The notes beneath the pieces were generated by a model. It was not told the origin of the DNA. It ran no database searches and was given only the letters and a program-made list of their open reading frames with translations. A stretch of DNA of 42,250 nt, from contig CAMBQC010000005.1 in assembly GCA_945869855.1 (NCBI GenBank), forward strand, positions 1 to 42,250, written 5' to 3'. Shown here one piece after another: positions 3,405-38,305 of the stretch (position 1 is its first letter; each line of letters opens with the position of its first letter). Source of the DNA: Prosthecobacter debontii (GTDB taxonomy: Bacteria > Verrucomicrobiota > Verrucomicrobiia > Verrucomicrobiales > Akkermansiaceae). The position numbers and the translations under genes are program-made.

Positions 3405-6400
3405 CTACTCTCCGATGGTGAACTTCATGCTGTCGCTGTTGGCGCGGAGTTCCGGCGCATACATCGCCTCGGCTCGAGTGGGCAGGGCGCTGAAATTACC
3501 GGGGATCTCGGCTCTCAGGCGGTAGCTGAGGTTGTGGCGGCCGCGCGGAAGAGTTTGGACAAAAAGGGAAACCTTCTCGTCGCGCAGCTCCATGTAGGCT
3601 CCCAGGCCGTTCGGGTTGTAGCCGGATTGCACATCGACGGCCTCCATCCCGGCCACTTTCCAATCCTCGAAGACGAGGTATTCGTAATCGTTCTTGCTGT
3701 CGATGCCGAGCGTGACCTCGATCAGGTCGCCGCTCTTCACCTCGTCGCCGGATTTTAGTTCGACGCGTTTGTAGGCGGCACGCTTCTGGTCGATGGCCTG
3801 GCCTTGCGAATCGACCGCATTGATCACCTTCGTTTCCGGGACGAGCTTGTGGTAGGTGCGATCCACCTTCACTTCAAGACCGGCCTTGGTGATGTGATCC
3901 TCCAGCGTGAAATACTCGACGTAGGCGTTCGCATAGAGCGGGCCATCGCCTTTTTTGCGGAGCTCGATGGTGTGCTCACCGCTGGTGAGGATGTCACCAG
4001 CGATGAGGGCGGTGTTATCGAAGGTGAAAAGGTTCTCCTTGGTGATCTCCACGGTCTTGAGCGGCTTGCCGTCGAACAGGACTTCCACGGTGAGATTCGG
4101 ATCGCCCTCGTTGGTGGCTTTCAGGAAATCGCCAATGGCCTCGATGCAATACGCGGTGTCGCGGGTGGAGTTCCAATACGTGGAATGCCTGCGGTTGTTG
4201 ATCAGGTATTTCACCAGGCCGCGCGTGTCGGGGCTTTCCGGCTCCGCGGCGGCGAGGAGTTTCAGGAACCATGCCTGCGCCTCGAACTCGCTGCCATACC
4301 AAACCCACCAGTAACCACCGTTGCCTAACTCGAGGTAGGCGGTCTGATTTTCCTCATCGGTCTTGAGGAACTGGCGGATATTGCGGATCACCTCGTCGCG
4401 TCTCGCGTTGTCCTTGGTGCGGTGCAACTCCAGGCCGAGCAGGGATTTGGCGTAAACGGGTAGGTCGTTCTTATCGCGGAAAAGGAAGCTGAGCATCTGC
4501 GCGTGATCCTTTCCGCCTTCGCCGAGGATGCGGCGGACGAGGGCGTCGGTGGCGTCCGCTTTTTGCTTGGTGTTCTCTTTTCGCTTTTCCCAATGGGCGA
4601 TGCGATCCGCTGCCGTTTCCTCATATTTCGCGAGCCAAGCGAGACCGCGGGCGATCATGTCTTCCGGCACCTTCGCTCCGTTGTCACGGGCGAGCAGCAG
4701 TCCGTGCATCACGACGGCGGTGGTGTGCGGGTAGGATTGGTGGCCGAAGGCGGAGAACCATCCCCAGCCGCCGTCCGGGTTCTGCTGGTCGCGGAGTTTC
4801 GCGATTCCGGCACGCTCCATTTTCGCGACCTCCGCCTCATCCCAGACCGGATTCCAATGCGGATTTCCGGGCTTCCATTGCGCGGCACGTTCCTTCGGAT
4901 CGCCGAGTTGCTGCGGGTTGAGGTTGACCTTCTTGTTCTTGATCGCCGCGAGGTCGTGTCCTTGGGACTTCAGGATGTGGTGGACGACCGTCGTCGGCAC
5001 GAAACGGTTGAGCGTCTGCTCGGTGCAGCCATACGGATAGCTGGCGAGGTAGGGTAGCGCGTCGATCATCGCGCTCGCGACACTCGGCGAGTATTGGACG
5101 GTGACACGGCTCTCGGCGGGCCGGCGTTCCTGCGGGAGCTTGAAATCGATCTTCGCGGAATCCCCGTCCGGCGCGATGGCGCGGCTGTAGGATTCCGTTT
5201 TCAGGATTCCGTGGACGAAGACGGGGAATTTCATCTCCATCGCGTCGGAGTCATCGGCGGCGATGGCTTTCATGCGAATGACGGCCTCACCCTCTGAAAC
5301 GGCTTTGGCCGTCCAGTCGATGCGGGTTTCACCCATGGAGGGAATCGCCACGCGGCGCTCCTTGTCACCGGTTGCCTCGAGGCACTTGCCATCCAGCTCC
5401 AGAGACACAGCGACATCCTTCGCCGCCGCATGGTAGTTGTGGACGATGGCGCTTAGCGTCACCTCGTCCTTCTCGACGAAGAAACGCGGTGCCTGGAGGC
5501 GGATGATGAGATCCTTGCTCGTGACGATCTCCGCCGAGCCTTCGCCGACGCGGGTGCCCTTGCCCATCGCCCAGGTCTTGATCTTCCAGGTGGTGAGGTT
5601 GTCCGGCATCTCCAGATCGATGGTGGCCTCGCCCTTCTCGTCCATTTCCACCGAGCCGACCCATTTTAGCAGATCCGCAAATTCCGTGCGGACGACGACC
5701 TGTGGCGCGGCCTCGCCGGCTTTTTCCTCCGGGGCAGCCGCCGCAACGTCCATCGAAGCCTCCGCCAGCATCATCGGAGCAGCCCGCATAGCCTCCATGG
5801 GCGCGGTATCCAACTCACCGTCAAAACCACCGCCTCCACCCTTCCTCATCATCCCCTTGTTTCTCGCCACAGCCATGTGCCCGAAGATCCCGAGATGCTG
5901 CATGGGGAGGGTGTTCGGCAACTGGAGGTGGCTGCCGGAAAGTTGCTGCGAGTGCTCCATGCCCTGCGCGTAGTGGTGGCGTTTCCAGTCCCAGAAAAAC
6001 GGCACGATCTCGCCGACATTCGAGCCGCCGGAGATGGTTTCGAGCGATTTGTCATAGACGCTGATCGCGGCGGAGCCTTGGTAGGGTTTGCCGTCCAAGT
6101 CGGTGATCCGCACCTTGAAAGAGGTCTTCTCGCGCGGCTTGAGCTTGCCCTTCGCGGGCGAGACCTCGACATTGAGCACGCGCTTTTCCGGAGGCAGGAC
6201 GATCTCGCGCGTGACCGTGTGGACTTGGCCGTTGGCCACCGTCACGCCCTCGATGAAAAAGTTCGGCATGTCACCGAGTGAGGCCGGGATCTCGACGGTC
6301 TGCGACTTGCCCTCGATGCGGATGATTTTCGTCTCCGCCAGTTTTCCCTGTGAGGGTCGGATGAAAAGCCAGACGCGTGAGTCGGCTTTGTCCACGTTGA

Positions 6401-9400
6401 CCAGCAGTTTCACGGTGTCGCCGGGGCGGTATTCCTTCTTGTCGGGGATGAGTTCGAGGGCGTTGTATCGGAAATTTCCCTCGGGCTTCGCGCCGCGCAC
6501 GGAGAATACCGTCGCGCCCTCCTGCTTGCGGCCTTTCTTGTCCGTGAACTCCACAGCCACGCGGTATTGCCCGGCCTTCGAGGCGGTGAACGTCCAGTTT
6601 CCTCCCTCGGGCGTCCATTTCCCGATCTCCTTTTCCTCGATCTCGCCCTTCGCGGTGAGTCCCGAAGAATAAAGGATCGCTGTCGCCGTACCCTCGACCT
6701 CTTTCCCATCGAGCGTGCGAGCGGCGAAGGTGCCTGTGACCTTGTCGCCGACGTTCGCGTAGCCGCGGTCGAGCCAGACGGTCACGCCGAACGGCTCGCG
6801 GGCGGCGAGCACAGAGCCGCTGCCGACGATCGTGCGGCGCGAGGCATCTACTACCTCCGCAGTAATTGAGTAGCGGTGATCCTGGTCGCCGTGGACAAGT
6901 TTCGCGATGGAGCTATCGATCTTCACCTTCACCTTGCCGTCCGCGCCGATGGCCGCCGTTTGCTCAAGCACCAGTTCGGGCGCACCTATGCGGTTCTGCT
7001 GCCACCACGGCGGAGAAGGACGGATGCAGCCCCACCTCGCCCAGCCGGGATACCAATCGCACACCGGGTACGCCCACCAGTAGCCCGGCCCATAAAGCCA
7101 GTCCCACGGCCCCGCCGGGAACCAGCGGTCGTTGAAAAAGTTCCGCTCCACCTTGATTTTCACGGTGGCCTCCGTGACCGGCGCACCGTGGTAGTAGTTT
7201 GCTGAAACGGTGGCCTCGAAGGCCTCGCCGAGCGCCACGGGTTCGGCCGGAGCATCGACCTTCACCTCGTATTCCGGCTTTTTGTATTCCTCGACGCGGA
7301 AGGTGAAAAACGTGGACGGGACACCGCCGGTGACGCTGACGTTGTAGATCCCCAGCGCAGCCTCTTCCTTGAGATCGAGATCGAATTCGATACCGCCAAA
7401 GCCATCCGCCCCGAGACCCTTTTTCTCAAGGATCAGTTCATTGCGGCCGTCGCGGATCTCGATGTCCGCCGTTTTCCCCGCGTAGGTGGAAACCTCGCCG
7501 AGATCATAGCGCGCCTCGCCGGCCCAGAGTTTCACATGAACTTTCTGACCGGGGCGGTAAACCGGACGGTCGGTGATGCCAATGGTTTTCTGCGCAAGGT
7601 AGTCGGTGCTATCCCCGTTGTCGCCCCACTGGAAACGGTGGCTGGAAAGGTAGGCGCGGCGTTCCCCGGCGCGGGCGATCACATGCCATTGGAACTGGTT
7701 GCCATCCTCTTGCACCTCATCGAGGACGAGCTTTCCGTCGGCATCCGTGTTCCTTTTGAAACTCCTGGTGACGACCTCGAAGCGGCGCTTGCCCTTCGCT
7801 TTCTCCAAATACTCCATGCGGAAACCGAAGAACTCCAGCTCCCCCGCCACGGGCCTGCCGTCCGCCGCATCGACGAGATAAAATACCTCATTGCCCGATT
7901 CGGAACGTTTCAGCAAAACGAGATCGCGCACCCAGACGACGACCCATGAGGTGTTGCCGCCCTCCAGCTTCGATTCGAGCAGGTAGCAACCCGGCGCGAG
8001 CTTGCCGAGGTCGAGGTTCGTGGTGGTGTCGTGGTGGGATTCGTCCGGCTTGAGTTCCTGTTTCCACGAGCGGATCTCCTCGCCCACGTAACGCCCGCGC
8101 TCCTTGCCGATCAGGCGGTTGCCGAGATATTCGAACTGGATTTTCTCGTGATCGACCTCAACGGGATTCCCTTTCAGGTATTCGATGATGTCCGCCATCA
8201 CCAGCTCGTCCTTCACGCCGGAGAGCTTCAGGGAAACCTCCTTCGCGTTGCGGAACGTGTAGGGCACCTCGACGGGATTGGCGGCGTGATAGGTCGGCGT
8301 GGTGCCGAAGCGGCTCCAGTTCCCGAGGATCTGTTGCATCAGTTTCTCGCGATGCCCGTGGTTGCCTTTCCCGTGAAGGCCGATGACCTCTTTCATGGTC
8401 TCGGCGGCCTGCACGTGTTGCTGGCGGTTCAGGAAGACCTGTACCAGCTGATCCCCCGCCTGCTCTGCGTAACCGCCTTTTCCCTTCCGCATCAACGTCC
8501 GGAACCCGGGGATGAACTGATGGTCTTCGCGAAGGGTGAAACGCTTCACACCGTTGGCCAGCCGGGCGATCGTTTCCGTTTCCTTCAATGTGGAAGCCTG
8601 CAGGATTCCATCGCGTTCGCTCACCTCGGACTGCCTCCACCAACTGAAGGAAGCAAGCGTGTTGACGTCGTAATGCGCTTGGCAGTAGCCGAGCCATTTC
8701 AGCACTTCACCGGTGGCTTGCGTGGGATCGATTCGGGCGATCTCTTCCATCGTCCAGCGCCACCTTTCGCCATCCGAGGCGGCCGTTTCCCATGATTTCG
8801 GAACATCGATCCATGAGGGATTCCCCTCCGTGTCGACCGGTGCTCCCTCGCTGGTGATTGTATCGATTTGCTCCGTGTAATCCGCCACCGCTTTCATATC
8901 CGTGAGGAGATGTAGCTGCCAGACATTTCCCGACCCTGTGCGCGACATCGTGAGGGCGTTACCGATCTGGCGGAGAATCGCCACTTCCTTCGCCCCACCT
9001 TTTTCGACGGTTAGGTGGGCTTGGAGCAAACATTGCAGTGCACGGCGGCGATCCTGCTCATTCACCTGTATGTAATTGCCGCGTCCATTCATCCCACGCT
9101 GGAAACCGCCGTCGAGAATTTGTCCGTAACTGCCGTGGGTGCTGAGAAACGCATCACCCGCCGCCCGCATGAAATCCGGGTTGCCCTTCTTGCTTTCCGT
9201 GAGTTCAGCCAACAAAGGATCGAAATTCTGCGGCTCGCCAAGCTGCCGCTGCGACTGCAAGGCTTGTTGCAGATCGGTCGCCGATTCTGCGTCATCCACC
9301 TCGCGGAGAATCTTTACCCTCAACTCGTATGCCTCGCGCCAGTTGCCTTGCTTCTCAAGTTCTGCGGCTTGTTTTCTCATGGCGGGTGCTTCGGCGGCCG

Positions 9401-9449
9401 ATGCCATGGCACAGGTCATAATCAGGAAAATCAGGGCTTTCATATCCAT
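3405..9449 (-). CDS. Alpha-2-macroglobulin family protein (large bacterial A2M with MG2/thioester/TED domains)
   Basis: 2014 aa with signal-like N-terminus; 'ITDRPVYRPGQKVHVKLW', 'VRTEFADLLKWVGSVEMDEKGEATIDLEMPDNLTTWKIKTWAMG', thioester 'YPYGCTEQTLNRF', 'DQQNPDGGWGWFSAFGHQSYPHTTAVVMHGL'. Confidence 0.95.
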   Translation of the reverse strand: MDMKALIFLIMTCAMASAAEAPAMRKQAAELEKQGNWREAYELRVKILREVDDAESATDLQQALQSQRQLGEPQNFDPLLAELTESKKGNPDFMRAAGDAFLSTHGSYGQILDGGFQRGMNGRGNYIQVNEQDRRRALQCLLQAHLTVEKGGAKEVAILRQIGNALTMSRTGSGNVWQLHLLTDMKAVADYTEQIDTITSEGAPVDTEGNPSWIDVPKSWETAASDGERWRWTMEEIARIDPTQATGEVLKWLGYCQAHYDVNTLASFSWWRQSEVSERDGILQASTLKETETIARLANGVKRFTLREDHQFIPGFRTLMRKGKGGYAEQAGDQLVQVFLNRQQHVQAAETMKEVIGLHGKGNHGHREKLMQQILGNWSRFGTTPTYHAANPVEVPYTFRNAKEVSLKLSGVKDELVMADIIEYLKGNPVEVDHEKIQFEYLGNRLIGKERGRYVGEEIRSWKQELKPDESHHDTTTNLDLGKLAPGCYLLESKLEGGNTSWVVVWVRDLVLLKRSESGNEVFYLVDAADGRPVAGELEFFGFRMEYLEKAKGKRRFEVVTRSFKRNTDADGKLVLDEVQEDGNQFQWHVIARAGERRAYLSSHRFQWGDNGDSTDYLAQKTIGITDRPVYRPGQKVHVKLWAGEARYDLGEVSTYAGKTADIEIRDGRNELILEKKGLGADGFGGIEFDLDLKEEAALGIYNVSVTGGVPSTFFTFRVEEYKKPEYEVKVDAPAEPVALGEAFEATVSANYYHGAPVTEATVKIKVERNFFNDRWFPAGPWDWLYGPGYWWAYPVCDWYPGWARWGCIRPSPPWWQQNRIGAPELVLEQTAAIGADGKVKVKIDSSIAKLVHGDQDHRYSITAEVVDASRRTIVGSGSVLAAREPFGVTVWLDRGYANVGDKVTGTFAARTLDGKEVEGTATAILYSSGLTAKGEIEEKEIGKWTPEGGNWTFTASKAGQYRVAVEFTDKKGRKQEGATVFSVRGAKPEGNFRYNALELIPDKKEYRPGDTVKLLVNVDKADSRVWLFIRPSQGKLAETKIIRIEGKSQTVEIPASLGDMPNFFIEGVTVANGQVHTVTREIVLPPEKRVLNVEVSPAKGKLKPREKTSFKVRITDLDGKPYQGSAAISVYDKSLETISGGSNVGEIVPFFWDWKRHHYAQGMEHSQQLSGSHLQLPNTLPMQHLGIFGHMAVARNKGMMRKGGGGGFDGELDTAPMEAMRAAPMMLAEASMDVAAAAPEEKAGEAAPQVVVRTEFADLLKWVGSVEMDEKGEATIDLEMPDNLTTWKIKTWAMGKGTRVGEGSAEIVTSKDLIIRLQAPRFFVEKDEVTLSAIVHNYHAAAKDVAVSLELDGKCLEATGDKERRVAIPSMGETRIDWTAKAVSEGEAVIRMKAIAADDSDAMEMKFPVFVHGILKTESYSRAIAPDGDSAKIDFKLPQERRPAESRVTVQYSPSVASAMIDALPYLASYPYGCTEQTLNRFVPTTVVHHILKSQGHDLAAIKNKKVNLNPQQLGDPKERAAQWKPGNPHWNPVWDEAEVAKMERAGIAKLRDQQNPDGGWGWFSAFGHQSYPHTTAVVMHGLLLARDNGAKVPEDMIARGLAWLAKYEETAADRIAHWEKRKENTKQKADATDALVRRILGEGGKDHAQMLSFLFRDKNDLPVYAKSLLGLELHRTKDNARRDEVIRNIRQFLKTDEENQTAYLELGNGGYWWVWYGSEFEAQAWFLKLLAAAEPESPDTRGLVKYLINNRRHSTYWNSTRDTAYCIEAIGDFLKATNEGDPNLTVEVLFDGKPLKTVEITKENLFTFDNTALIAGDILTSGEHTIELRKKGDGPLYANAYVEYFTLEDHITKAGLEVKVDRTYHKLVPETKVINAVDSQGQAIDQKRAAYKRVELKSGDEVKSGDLIEVTLGIDSKNDYEYLVFEDWKVAGMEAVDVQSGYNPNGLGAYMELRDEKVSLFVQTLPRGRHNLSYRLRAEIPGNFSALPTRAEAMYAPELRANSDSMKFTIGE

Positions 9450-29917: not shown

Positions 29918-30637
29918 ATGGTCAAGCCATCACACCCTTCAAATCTCGAACTCCAAGCATTGACTGTCTTATGGCACGACGGTCCTTCTACTGTGAACGC
30001 AGTACATGGTTCGCTCCCGGATGGCCGTGAGCGTGCCTACACCACAGTGCTCTCTGTAATGCAGAGCCTAGAACGCAAGAAGTTGGTTAAGCGCATACGT
30101 TCGGGCAGAGCCCACACCTATGAGCCCGCCTACTCCCAAGAGGTCATTGTGCGCCGCGCCACGGATGACTTTATCACCAACGCTTTTGGAGGACGCCTCG
30201 GTGAGGCGGTCCTCGCTACCCTCTCCGCCGGTTCATTAACACTGGAAGAGAAAACAAACATTGAACGCGAACTCCAAAGACACAAAACCATGGCTGCAAA
30301 AAAAACAATAAAGAAGGCCGCGGCCAAGCCCGCGAGTAAACCCGCCGCAAAAAAAGTTGCCAAGAAGGCGCCGGCTAAAAAAGCCGCTGCCAAAAAGGCA
30401 GTGAAAAAGGCAGTGAAAAAGGCACCCGCCAAAAAAGCTCCGGCTAAAAAAGCGGTGAAGAAGGTGGCGAAAAGCGCCAAGAAGGCACCTGCTAAAAAGG
30501 CAGTTGCTAAAAAGGTTGTAGCCAAGAAGGCCGCCGTGAAGAAGGCACCAGCCAAGAAGGCCGCCGTGAAGAAGGCACCAGCTAAGAAGGCCGCCGTGAA
30601 GAAGGCACCAGCTAAGAAGGCCGCCAAGAAAGCATAA
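29918..30637 (+). CDS. BlaI/MecI/CopY-family winged-helix regulator fused to histone H1-like (Lys/Ala/Pro-rich) tail
   Basis: aa 1-~120 '[68 protein letters not shown]..' is BlaI-like; aa 125-239 '[31 protein letters not shown]...' is H1/Hc-like low complexity. Confidence 0.9.
30526..30632 (+). repeat. 30-bp coding tandem repeat ([40 protein letters not shown]), about 3.5 copies
   Basis: Near-identical consecutive copies seen at the 3' end of the BlaI-H1-like gene. Confidence 0.85.
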
Positions 30638-32344: not shown

Positions 32345-34543
32345 TCACCCGCCGCTTTTTGCGATGATTTCCGAATATAGCTCCACCTCCGGCGTGGGCT
32401 TACGCACTAGGCTGGGATCGTTGTCGAGATCAACGAAGTAGAGGCCGAAGTCGGTGTTGGGATCGAAAGGATGACCCCACTCACGGTTCGATGTGATCGA
32501 CCACCAGTTGTAGGCGCGGACGGGGACGCCGGCGCTGATGGCGTTGGCGACCTCGGCGAGATGCGAGCGCATGTAGTCGCTGCGGGTGATGTCGCCCGCC
32601 GTGGGCGTGCAGCCGTTTTCTACAATGAGCAGCTCTTGGCCGGGAAACCAACGGCTGAAGCGCCGCAGGGCATGGAAAAGTCCGCGCGGCCAGACGGGCG
32701 CGCGGAGGAAACGCCCGTTCGCGGCTTCCTCTAACAGTCGGAAATTCGCGAGTCGGTGGGTCGGCAGCCCCCAGTAGTAATCAAGACCGATGAAATCTTG
32801 CGCGCCGATGGCTTCCGGCGGGCAGAGTTCCTTGGCTAGTTTTCCCGACATGCCGAGATACCACCAGTTCGAGTTTGCGATGAGCGTGGTGGTTCCCCAA
32901 AAGCGCCACGCCCAGTTCAACCAGCTTGATTTCGACTCCATGCTCCCGAAACGATCCCCGGGACTGATGGGGACGATCACGAGCTTCGATTCATCGCCGA
33001 AAAGCCGCGCCGCGATCAGCCGCGCAAGCCTGACTTCAAGTCCTTCGCCGGTGCATTTTTGGGAAATGCCCGGCGCATCAGTGCGGATGCCGATGCGGAC
33101 TTTTCCTCGTCGCAGTATGCGCCTCATTCCGCGCCGAGAGGAGAGATGCGTTGGTAAACTTTTACCGTCGGTGAATACCTCGTGAAGCGACACGGGCCTG
33201 ATGGAGCGTCCGATGAACGCATCCGGTTCGGAAAGCCATGAGACATCGCACTGCCCGGCGAGATCATGCTGGAAATCACGGATGGCGAGATCGACATGGT
33301 CGAGCAGCCGGGTATGGCCGTGCGGTGCGAGCACTACGTAGTGTTCCTCGCTGAGGCAGGTTTTGAGGAAACGGAAACGCCCGCGGTTCTCAAGCTCGGG
33401 CGGCAGGAGGTAAAAGGCGTCCCCGTAGAGCGCGTCCACTTTCCCTTCGGCGAGCGCGTCGCGGGCATCGTCATAGTTGCGGAAAAGCTGCTTGCGTGAG
33501 CTGGACGGGAGATCTCGCTTCCAGCCCTGCGGCTGATTGCCAACCGCGACAACGCCGACTTTTTTTCCCGCCAGTGAGGACAGGTCGCAGTCCGCTCGAT
33601 CGGAAGGCACCAACACGGCCTTGCCGGTGCGGAGATATGGATCGCTGGATTCGAAACGCGTCTGATCCTCCATCGTAATGCCGCCGATGACCAGATCTAC
33701 GTCGCCGCGCTCGCTGACGAGTGCGCCCTTGGTGGTGAATTTAAAAAGCGCCTCTGCCATGCCGCGGTGGCACGCACCCCAATCTAACAACATCTGAAAC
33801 CAGATCGGGAAACCCGTGACAAGCGGGTTCACGCCGACTTTTGCTTCGGTTCGCCGCGCCTTGATCGCCGCGCGCGCGCGTGTGTGGGCGAGGAACAGGT
33901 TTGGCACCAGTTTCCCGACGGCCTTTGCCTCGTCATCGACAGTCGTGCCGTGCGGCAAGCCCGGTGGCATGTAGTAGCGGTTCTGCCACCACGGCTTGAT
34001 GTATCCGAAGGTGAGCTGGCTAGGCTCGTTGAAGGTGATCCACCAATCGACGTTTTCACCGCAGGCCTCCGCGACTTTGTCGGCGTAGCGGGCGAATAGA
34101 TCCGGAAACTCCGGCGCGAGCATTCCGCCGTGGTCGCGCTCCAGCCACACAGGCCACACGAAATGGTGGAGCGTGAGCATAAGCTTCATTCCGTGGCGGC
34201 GGACGCAAGCCGCCACCTCCGCGTAATGCGCAAGCGCGGCATGATCGAATTTCCCGCACTCCGGCTCCACACGCGCCCACGCGACAGAGAAACGGAAAAG
34301 CTTGCAGCCCATGGCAGCCGCTGAGGCGATATCCTCACTGTAGCGTTTCGCAAAATCCGTCCCCTTCCCACGCGGTGTCAGTCCCTGACACCGCTCCCAC
34401 AGATCCCAGACATCCTCGCGCAGAGGATCATGCGCCTCCACTTGGTGATCGGCGTTCGCGGTACCAAAGAGGAAACCCTCCGGAAACACCAACTCCGGTC
34501 GCTCGCGTTTTCTGGCAACGTATGGAGGCTTGTCAGAGGACAC
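32345..34543 (-). CDS. Glycoside hydrolase family 1 protein with inserted, apparently circularly permuted SBP_bac_3-type solute-binding domain
   Basis: GH1: 'FPEGFLFGTANADHQVE', 'RFSVAWARVEPECGKFDHAALAHY', 'WWITFNEPSQ' (acid/base E173), 'ELLIVENGC' (nucleophile E642), 'VRAYNWWSITSNREWGHPFDPNTDFGLYFVD'. Insert aa ~279-536: 'RGDVDLVIGGITMEDQTRFESSDPYLRTGKAVLV...LAGKKVGVVAVG...ARDALAEGKVDALYGD' then 'LRRGKVRIGIRTDAPGISQKCTGEGLEVRLARLIAARLFGDESKLVIVPISPGDRFGSMES'. Confidence 0.88.
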   Translation of the reverse strand: MSSDKPPYVARKRERPELVFPEGFLFGTANADHQVEAHDPLREDVWDLWERCQGLTPRGKGTDFAKRYSEDIASAAAMGCKLFRFSVAWARVEPECGKFDHAALAHYAEVAACVRRHGMKLMLTLHHFVWPVWLERDHGGMLAPEFPDLFARYADKVAEACGENVDWWITFNEPSQLTFGYIKPWWQNRYYMPPGLPHGTTVDDEAKAVGKLVPNLFLAHTRARAAIKARRTEAKVGVNPLVTGFPIWFQMLLDWGACHRGMAEALFKFTTKGALVSERGDVDLVIGGITMEDQTRFESSDPYLRTGKAVLVPSDRADCDLSSLAGKKVGVVAVGNQPQGWKRDLPSSSRKQLFRNYDDARDALAEGKVDALYGDAFYLLPPELENRGRFRFLKTCLSEEHYVVLAPHGHTRLLDHVDLAIRDFQHDLAGQCDVSWLSEPDAFIGRSIRPVSLHEVFTDGKSLPTHLSSRRGMRRILRRGKVRIGIRTDAPGISQKCTGEGLEVRLARLIAARLFGDESKLVIVPISPGDRFGSMESKSSWLNWAWRFWGTTTLIANSNWWYLGMSGKLAKELCPPEAIGAQDFIGLDYYWGLPTHRLANFRLLEEAANGRFLRAPVWPRGLFHALRRFSRWFPGQELLIVENGCTPTAGDITRSDYMRSHLAEVANAISAGVPVRAYNWWSITSNREWGHPFDPNTDFGLYFVDLDNDPSLVRKPTPEVELYSEIIAKSGG

Positions 34544-37825: not shown

Positions 37826-37993
37826 TTGGAATGCAACGTGAAGCCGTAACCGACGCTCGATCCTTACCCTGCCGTTAGAAACGGAAATAAACTGGGTGAT
37901 ACCTATGCGGGTCTACTGGCTTTGATTCTTCTCGGCTCTCTCCACCTTCCAACCACCACTGCCACACCCCCCCCGACACAAGCTCCCGAATTT

Positions 37994-38305
37994 ATGCTAC
38001 GATCCCTTATCGCCGCCACCGTTTCCCTCATCCTCCCGCTGGACGCCGCAAAGCCGCCCAACATCGTATTCTTCCTTTTCGACGACATGGGATACGGGGA
38101 GCCGAAGTGCTACCGAGAGGACACGAAGCTCAAGACCCCGAACATCGACCGGCTTGCCGCCGAAGGCATGCGTTTCACCGACCTCATGAACAAGGTCATC
38201 ACTGATGGCCGCAGCACCGCAGGTGCGCCACAGCAAAACGATTCCCATGTGAGCCTTGGAAAAGCGGCCACCGTAAAACCGAACAATGAAAGCAAAGACA
38301 ACTGA
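37994..38305 (+). pseudogene. Internally deleted 'mini-sulfatase': N-terminus joined in frame to C-terminus
   Basis: 'MLRSLIAATVSLILPLDAAKPPNIVFFLFDDMGYGEPKCYREDTKLKTPNIDRLAAEGMRFTD' (sulfatase start) joined to 'LMNKVITDGRSTAGAPQQNDSHV...' (sulfatase C-terminal style); active-site C-x-P-x-R region and core absent. Confidence 0.82.

Follow-up and report, generated by a model that had tools for sequence, protein, structure and literature searches.

Protein engineers have long designed ligand-gated enzymes around permuted binding proteins. In RG13, a circularly permuted beta-lactamase placed in maltose-binding protein, and in XynA-XBP, permutation together with insertion couples lobe closure to catalysis (PMC6335823, PMC4896006). 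These are the closest designs to the protein described here, but they are man-made and hold the enzyme inside the binding protein, whereas here a permuted solute-binding protein (SBP) domain lies inside the enzyme. The closest natural parallel, which joins an SBP-like regulatory domain to a catalytic domain, is MltF. Its regulatory domain is unpermuted and fused end to end at the N-terminus, and the protein is periplasmic and of a different catalytic fold. In this lytic transglycosylase, occupation of the N-terminal regulatory domain by a muropeptide opens the active site of the glycan-cleaving enzyme (PMC10746161). No published description of the GH1-SBP architecture, in which an SBP domain is combined with a family 1 glycosidase (GH1), was found in the full-text literature searched, which consisted of open-licence papers.

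The gene lies at 32345..34543 on the minus strand of the window, i.e., the whole stretch of 42,250 nucleotides that was analysed, and encodes a protein of 732 aa with a GTG start, a GH1 enzyme with an inserted circularly permuted SBP domain. The Pfam GH1 model (PF00232) scored 170.7 bits against a cut-off of 22.6 and matched both halves of the enzyme, aa 19-239 (profile 4-219) and another stretch within the C-terminal half (5e-50); the profile scan of the organism's own genome gave the two halves as positions 4-219 and 335-451 of the profile, separated by about 1.1 kb. Based on these matches, the invariant residues and the AlphaFold (AF2) model of the whole protein (pLDDT 80.7, pTM 0.78), the N-terminal half comprises aa 1-271 (33731..34543, minus strand) with barrel strands beta1-beta5, and the C-terminal half aa 539-732 (32345..32929, minus strand) with alpha5, beta6-beta8 and E688/W689. 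The eight barrel strands of the model are 25-29, 82-86, 120-126, 167-172, 235-239, 584-592, 637-643 and 675-681, and its Foldseek matches were GH1 enzymes. Both family 1 motifs are present: the acid/base Glu173 of T(F/L)NEP, here TFNEP (window 34025-34027, minus strand, in the N-terminal half), and the nucleophile Glu642 of ENG (window 32618-32620, minus strand, in the C-terminal half) lie at the ends of modelled strands beta4 (167-172) and beta7 (637-643), and they flank the insert as the first-pass annotation had described. Since the catalytic and sugar-binding residues Q34, H127, N172, E173, Y589, Y590, E642, W681, E688 and W689 are invariant in 36 diverse homologues, the enzyme is predicted from its sequence to be catalytically competent. 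The (beta/alpha)8 fold, the catalytic glutamates on beta4 and beta7 and the conserved Q/H/N/E/W sugar-binding residues are shared with GH1 beta-glycosidases such as 4r27, 1vff and 1od0; the solved GH1s matched here, unlike the window protein, are without an SBP domain.

The segment between the GH1 halves had been read earlier as an SBP_bac_3-type, amino-acid-binding domain that is circularly permuted and broken within the N-lobe, and the permutation was borne out. The NCBIfam amino-acid SBP models matched aa 280-427 with profile positions ~82-232 and aa 474-528 with positions 32-90, i.e., in swapped order. With Pfam SBP_bac_3 (PF00497), the cyanobacterial, Chloroflexota and better-scoring Eremiobacterota homologues gave 60-99 bits, but the window protein stayed below the threshold. 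In searches of PDB sequences, the insert of the cyanobacterial homologue L059 in native order gave two matches to the glutamate-binding protein 5eyf, in swapped positions (26.6 and 95.3 bits), and after in silico exchange of its halves a single full-length match over residues 2-234 (137 bits); the window insert with exchanged halves matched AncQR with 54.9 bits. The insert thus departs from the standard N-to-C order of SBPs. The AF2 model of the insert alone (pLDDT 77.9, pTM 0.76) predicts the two-lobed type II SBP fold that had been proposed: its best 50 PDB matches in Foldseek, each spanning ~155 sequential residues, were all type II SBPs, nearly all amino-acid-binding, with probability 1.00. 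The architecture and the permutation are established by computation. Compared with the amino-acid SBPs of ABC transporters (SBP_bac_3; 5eyf for Glu, 4zv1/4zv2 for AncQR, and L157-L159 of Chloroflexota), the insert has the same fold and matches over the full length once rejoined, but it is permuted, lies inside an enzyme, has no signal peptide and is not linked to a transporter.

The limits of the insert were set by an insert-free relative of 464 aa (L090), which aligns with the window protein up to aa 257 and resumes at aa 552, with 54% identity in the best segment. The alignment assigns the helix ahead of NWWxLGMxGxLP to the host GH1 and the stretch aa ~272-538 (32930..33730, minus strand) to the insert, as is also supported by the native and rejoined PDB searches and by AF2/Foldseek; the location given earlier was right, and its limits, aa 279-536, were slightly narrow. 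In the AF2 model barrel strand 5 (235-239) and two short helices come before the insert, and helix 540-565 and then strand 6 (584-592) after it, which places it on the catalytic face of the barrel, in the beta5-alpha5 loop. This loop helps to form the active-site entrance in GH1 enzymes. The extended beta5-alpha5 region, comprising NWWxLGMxGxLPxFLCP and the insert, is a feature of the window's GH1 clade itself.

All parts of the insert are read on the minus strand. Segment 1 (aa 279-306; 33626..33709) is, by alignment, the middle of the native SBP and contains an N-lobe strand and the first hinge strand. The C-lobe with Asp375 follows (aa 307-399; 33347..33625), delimited as the stretch excised in the C-lobe-less homologues described below, and then the second hinge strand with the next N-lobe helix (aa 400-431; 33251..33346; AF2 models and alignment). 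A linker from the native SBP C-terminus to the native N-terminus (aa 432-471; 33131..33250), modelled with low confidence, carries an RPVSLHEVF motif that is conserved in the family according to the homologue comparison. It leads into segment 2, the native SBP N-terminus (aa 472-538; 32930..33130), which is supported by the NCBIfam match, the rejoined PDB search and the alignment.

Colinear, stop-free homologues with 37-97% identity were found in Verrucomicrobiota, Cyanobacteria, Eremiobacterota and Chloroflexota. Apart from the window's own genome, more than 20 of the 146 related genomes screened contained near-full-length colinear copies (52-97% identity) without internal stops, and the remaining copies were broken by contig ends or had shorter inserts. 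In the genome-wide scan this architecture turned up in isolates and MAGs of Akkermansiaceae (Luteolibacter marinus, Haloferula luteola and Roseibacillus ishigakijimensis), in the cyanobacteria Iphinoe, Calothrix and Crocosphaera, and in Eremiobacterota. The gene was present in 53 of the 149 Eremiobacterota genomes searched, and in only 4 of the 245 genomes of the cyanobacterial order searched. L096, a member labelled Proteobacteria, is placed within the set of Chloroflexota genomes searched, and this phylum provided other members as well. The species names in some MAG titles, e.g., 'Akkermansia muciniphila' and 'Prosthecobacter debontii', seem untrustworthy. The arrangement, kept in frame across dozens of independently assembled genomes, is confirmed to be far beyond chance, and the insertion site is conserved in these copies. 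Misassembly or a frameshift is ruled out by the homologues in four phyla. That the gene is a chimera of GH1 and SBP neighbours joined in assembly, an alternative raised at the outset, is extremely improbable: it has no positive support, apart from the fact that the window's genome is a fragmented draft of 136 contigs, and it is contradicted by the colinear in-frame homologues, one of them in a 4.4 Mb single-contig genome and others in the isolates Haloferula luteola and Luteolibacter marinus.

The insert-bearing proteins and L090 formed one clade (73/80 bootstraps), and the distances of the GH1 and SBP parts were correlated (r = 0.94, 630 pairs); both fit a single insertion followed by co-inheritance. 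L090 was considered as a possible ancestral, insert-free state: in an AU test neither a basal nor a nested position was rejected, and the bootstraps favour the nested one. More distant insert-free members (L120, L124 and L130) belong to Chloroflexota. One Chloroflexota genome (G635, C320 and C29) has both insert-bearing and insert-free genes of this GH1 clade. The closest free-standing SBPs found are Chloroflexota lipoproteins (<=42% identity) encoded beside amino-acid ABC transporter genes, and these lipoproteins share an RGxLxxGVxxDVxxFGYxxPxT pattern near the native N-terminus. As a suggestion only, a single step could have produced the permutation if two SBPs in tandem had been cut so as to keep the rear half of the first and the front half of the second. 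Between the window protein and L034 the dN/dS was ~0.09, with purifying selection on both lobes, and most close pairs gave values far below 1 for each of the two lobes; the value of 0.6 for the C-lobe of L061-L065, the least diverged cyanobacterial pair, came from very few changes. Within Akkermansiaceae the SBP part evolves faster than GH1, with mean identities of 60% and 57% vs 78%.

To compare the ligand pockets, the exchanged inserts were aligned with AncQR and 5eyf. We take the aligned Phe, Thr/Ser, Arg, Ser/Thr and Asp positions to be the ligand contacts of the SBP family, with the Arg holding the carboxylate of the amino acid. Nearly all of these contacts are retained in the cyanobacterial and most Chloroflexota members, which thus share the canonical ligand residues of amino-acid SBPs; L121, of Chloroflexota, differs at the Phe and Asp positions. 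The contacts are partly retained in Eremiobacterota and altered in Akkermansiaceae. In the window protein an Asp in segment 1 occupies the place of the canonical Arg, two residues are missing before that position, GST is replaced by GNQ, and only the Asp (D375) is left of the Arg, Ser/Thr and Asp set that is canonical for an alpha-amino-acid backbone. The carboxylate-binding Arg, replaced by Asp/Glu, and the neighbouring Thr are absent throughout the window's family, and an alternative pocket motif, GNQPxxWxRDLP, is near-invariant across most Akkermansiaceae members. Because the pocket contacts are rewritten, canonical binding of an alpha-amino acid is unlikely for the window protein; its family may have acquired a new ligand, or the switch may be decaying.

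The C-lobe is absent from 12 intact homologues. These still have both hinge strands and the N-lobe, as well as the linker and the swapped N-terminal part. The excision is in frame and exact, from hinge strand to hinge strand, and took place ~6 independent times: six losses were counted on the GH1 tree in 65 of 80 bootstraps, five in 14 and seven in one. The groups concerned are L077, L029, L091/L170, L171/L172, L173-L176 with L178, and L177, of which L077 and L029 represent losses in Verrucomicrobiota. L180, which has one undetermined residue and a scrambled stretch, was excluded from the count. The N-lobe appears to be structurally integrated and the moving C-lobe an optional extra, as would be expected of a C-lobe that has a regulatory role and is not needed for folding; since ~6 lineages live without it, gating or regulation is dispensable. 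The earlier identification of an amino-acid SBP stands for the type of fold, and the amino-acid-binding label is doubtful for the window copy, with Arg/Thr gone and the C-lobe lost in several homologues.

Hydropathy gave no apparent signal peptide or transmembrane-like stretch in the window protein, whose N-terminus is not hydrophobic, in agreement with the first-pass annotation; on this ground the enzyme is probably cytosolic. Transmembrane helices flanking the insert, with GH1 inside and the SBP outside, were considered and rejected, as no 19-residue window exceeded 1.6 in the window protein and most homologues, and the highest value anywhere, 1.63, fell inside a C-lobe. The marks of an ABC-transporter SBP (signal peptide or lipobox, linked permease or ATPase) were not found, and the flanking window genes that were read include no transporter gene.

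The best explanation as a whole, on which we are evenly poised between acceptance and doubt, is a GH1 with a once-inserted permuted SBP, ligand-gated in the ancestral-type members and with a rewritten pocket in the window's family. The window protein would be a cytosolic retaining beta-glycosidase of family 1, and a circularly permuted SBP domain of the glutamate/glutamine type would have been inserted once into the beta5-alpha5 loop at the active-site rim and inherited with the enzyme. The N-lobe would be fused to the barrel through two neighbouring junctions, leaving the C-lobe free to hinge. The most likely ligand of the domain in the ancestral-type members, i.e., those of Cyanobacteria and Chloroflexota, is an amino acid inside the cell, and lobe closure would shift the loop and change the glycosidase activity; in the window's family a different ligand may be sensed, or the switch may be on its way out, as in the C-lobe-excised relatives. 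The analysis shows the architecture, the permutation, the conservation, the intact catalytic residues, the pocket residues and the lobe excisions; ligand binding, gating, cytosolic location and substrate are what we infer here. Ligand-gated catalysis, as the first-pass annotation had proposed it, is reasonable for the family and weaker for the window copy, because its pocket is rewritten and the C-lobe has repeatedly been excised.

Two other readings were weighed. The insert could be vestigial or architectural in the window's lineage, its N-lobe part of the fold, no regulator bound and the enzyme unregulated. The lost Arg/Thr contacts in Akkermansiaceae, the ~6 hinge-to-hinge excisions, two of them in Verrucomicrobiota (L077 and L029), and the lower conservation of the SBP relative to GH1 would be explained in this way. 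However, the C-lobe is complete in most Akkermansiaceae members and dN/dS is far below 1, and the near-invariant GNQPxxWxRDLP and Asp375 persist in the pocket region; we regard this reading as unlikely, though it carries some weight. It is improbable, too, that the SBP is a substrate-recruiting module that captures a substrate or aglycone, e.g., a glycosylated amino acid, and passes it to the active site: the lobe-less members are still intact GH1 enzymes, so the module is unneeded for turnover, and there is no genomic link to glycosylated amino acids, even if the position on the catalytic face and the amino-acid-binding residues of the ancestral-type members would suit such a role. The ligand-gated reading can be extended, tentatively and with somewhat less than even confidence, to a natural family of cytosolic glycosidases that is widespread and gated by amino acids. 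It would have arisen by one insertion of a permuted glutamate-type SBP into a GH1 barrel, would have been repeatedly unswitched by clean lobe excision and retuned to a new ligand in Akkermansiaceae, and would be a natural counterpart of the engineered permuted-domain switches. If true, this natural and widespread permuted example would show how such switches arise and vanish in evolution. The family holds its own controls, i.e., insert-free, full-length canonical-pocket, rewritten-pocket and lobe-deleted enzymes in one clade, so the origin and loss of allostery are directly testable by ordinary enzymology, and it offers ready-made biosensor scaffolds.

The neighbours in the window encode a PhoD-like phosphatase, an M23 peptidase and sulfatases, and a conserved Akkermansiaceae operon was sought and not found beyond close relatives. 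A cluster of GMC oxidoreductase, alpha/beta hydrolase and patatin genes accompanies the gene in some cyanobacteria (L059, L061 and L065) and one Eremiobacterota genome, and possibly represents a glycolipid or terpenoid glycoside pathway. Such clusters with the GH1-SBP gene were seen at L184:521-11123, which includes an ADC-like gene, and L193:1807-10181, with SDR genes in some. A GH31 gene adjoins the GH1-SBP gene in some cyanobacteria (L061:10208-12577 and L183:4825-7194). Naming a substrate from the neighbours was rejected as inconsistent, with a GMC-type cluster in some genomes and GH31 in others. Elsewhere in the window, 29918-30637 (plus strand) encodes a penicillinase-repressor domain of the BlaI/MecI type with a long Lys/Ala-rich, histone-H1-like tail (PF03965; weak HC2 match). 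A short ORF at 37922-38305 (plus strand), between two intact sulfatase genes, matches the sulfatase profile over no more than its N-terminal 43 positions and is probably a truncated sulfatase remnant. A bacterial alpha-2-macroglobulin-like protein of 2014 aa, with MG2, bait region, A2M and bMG10 domains, is encoded at 3405-9449 (minus strand).
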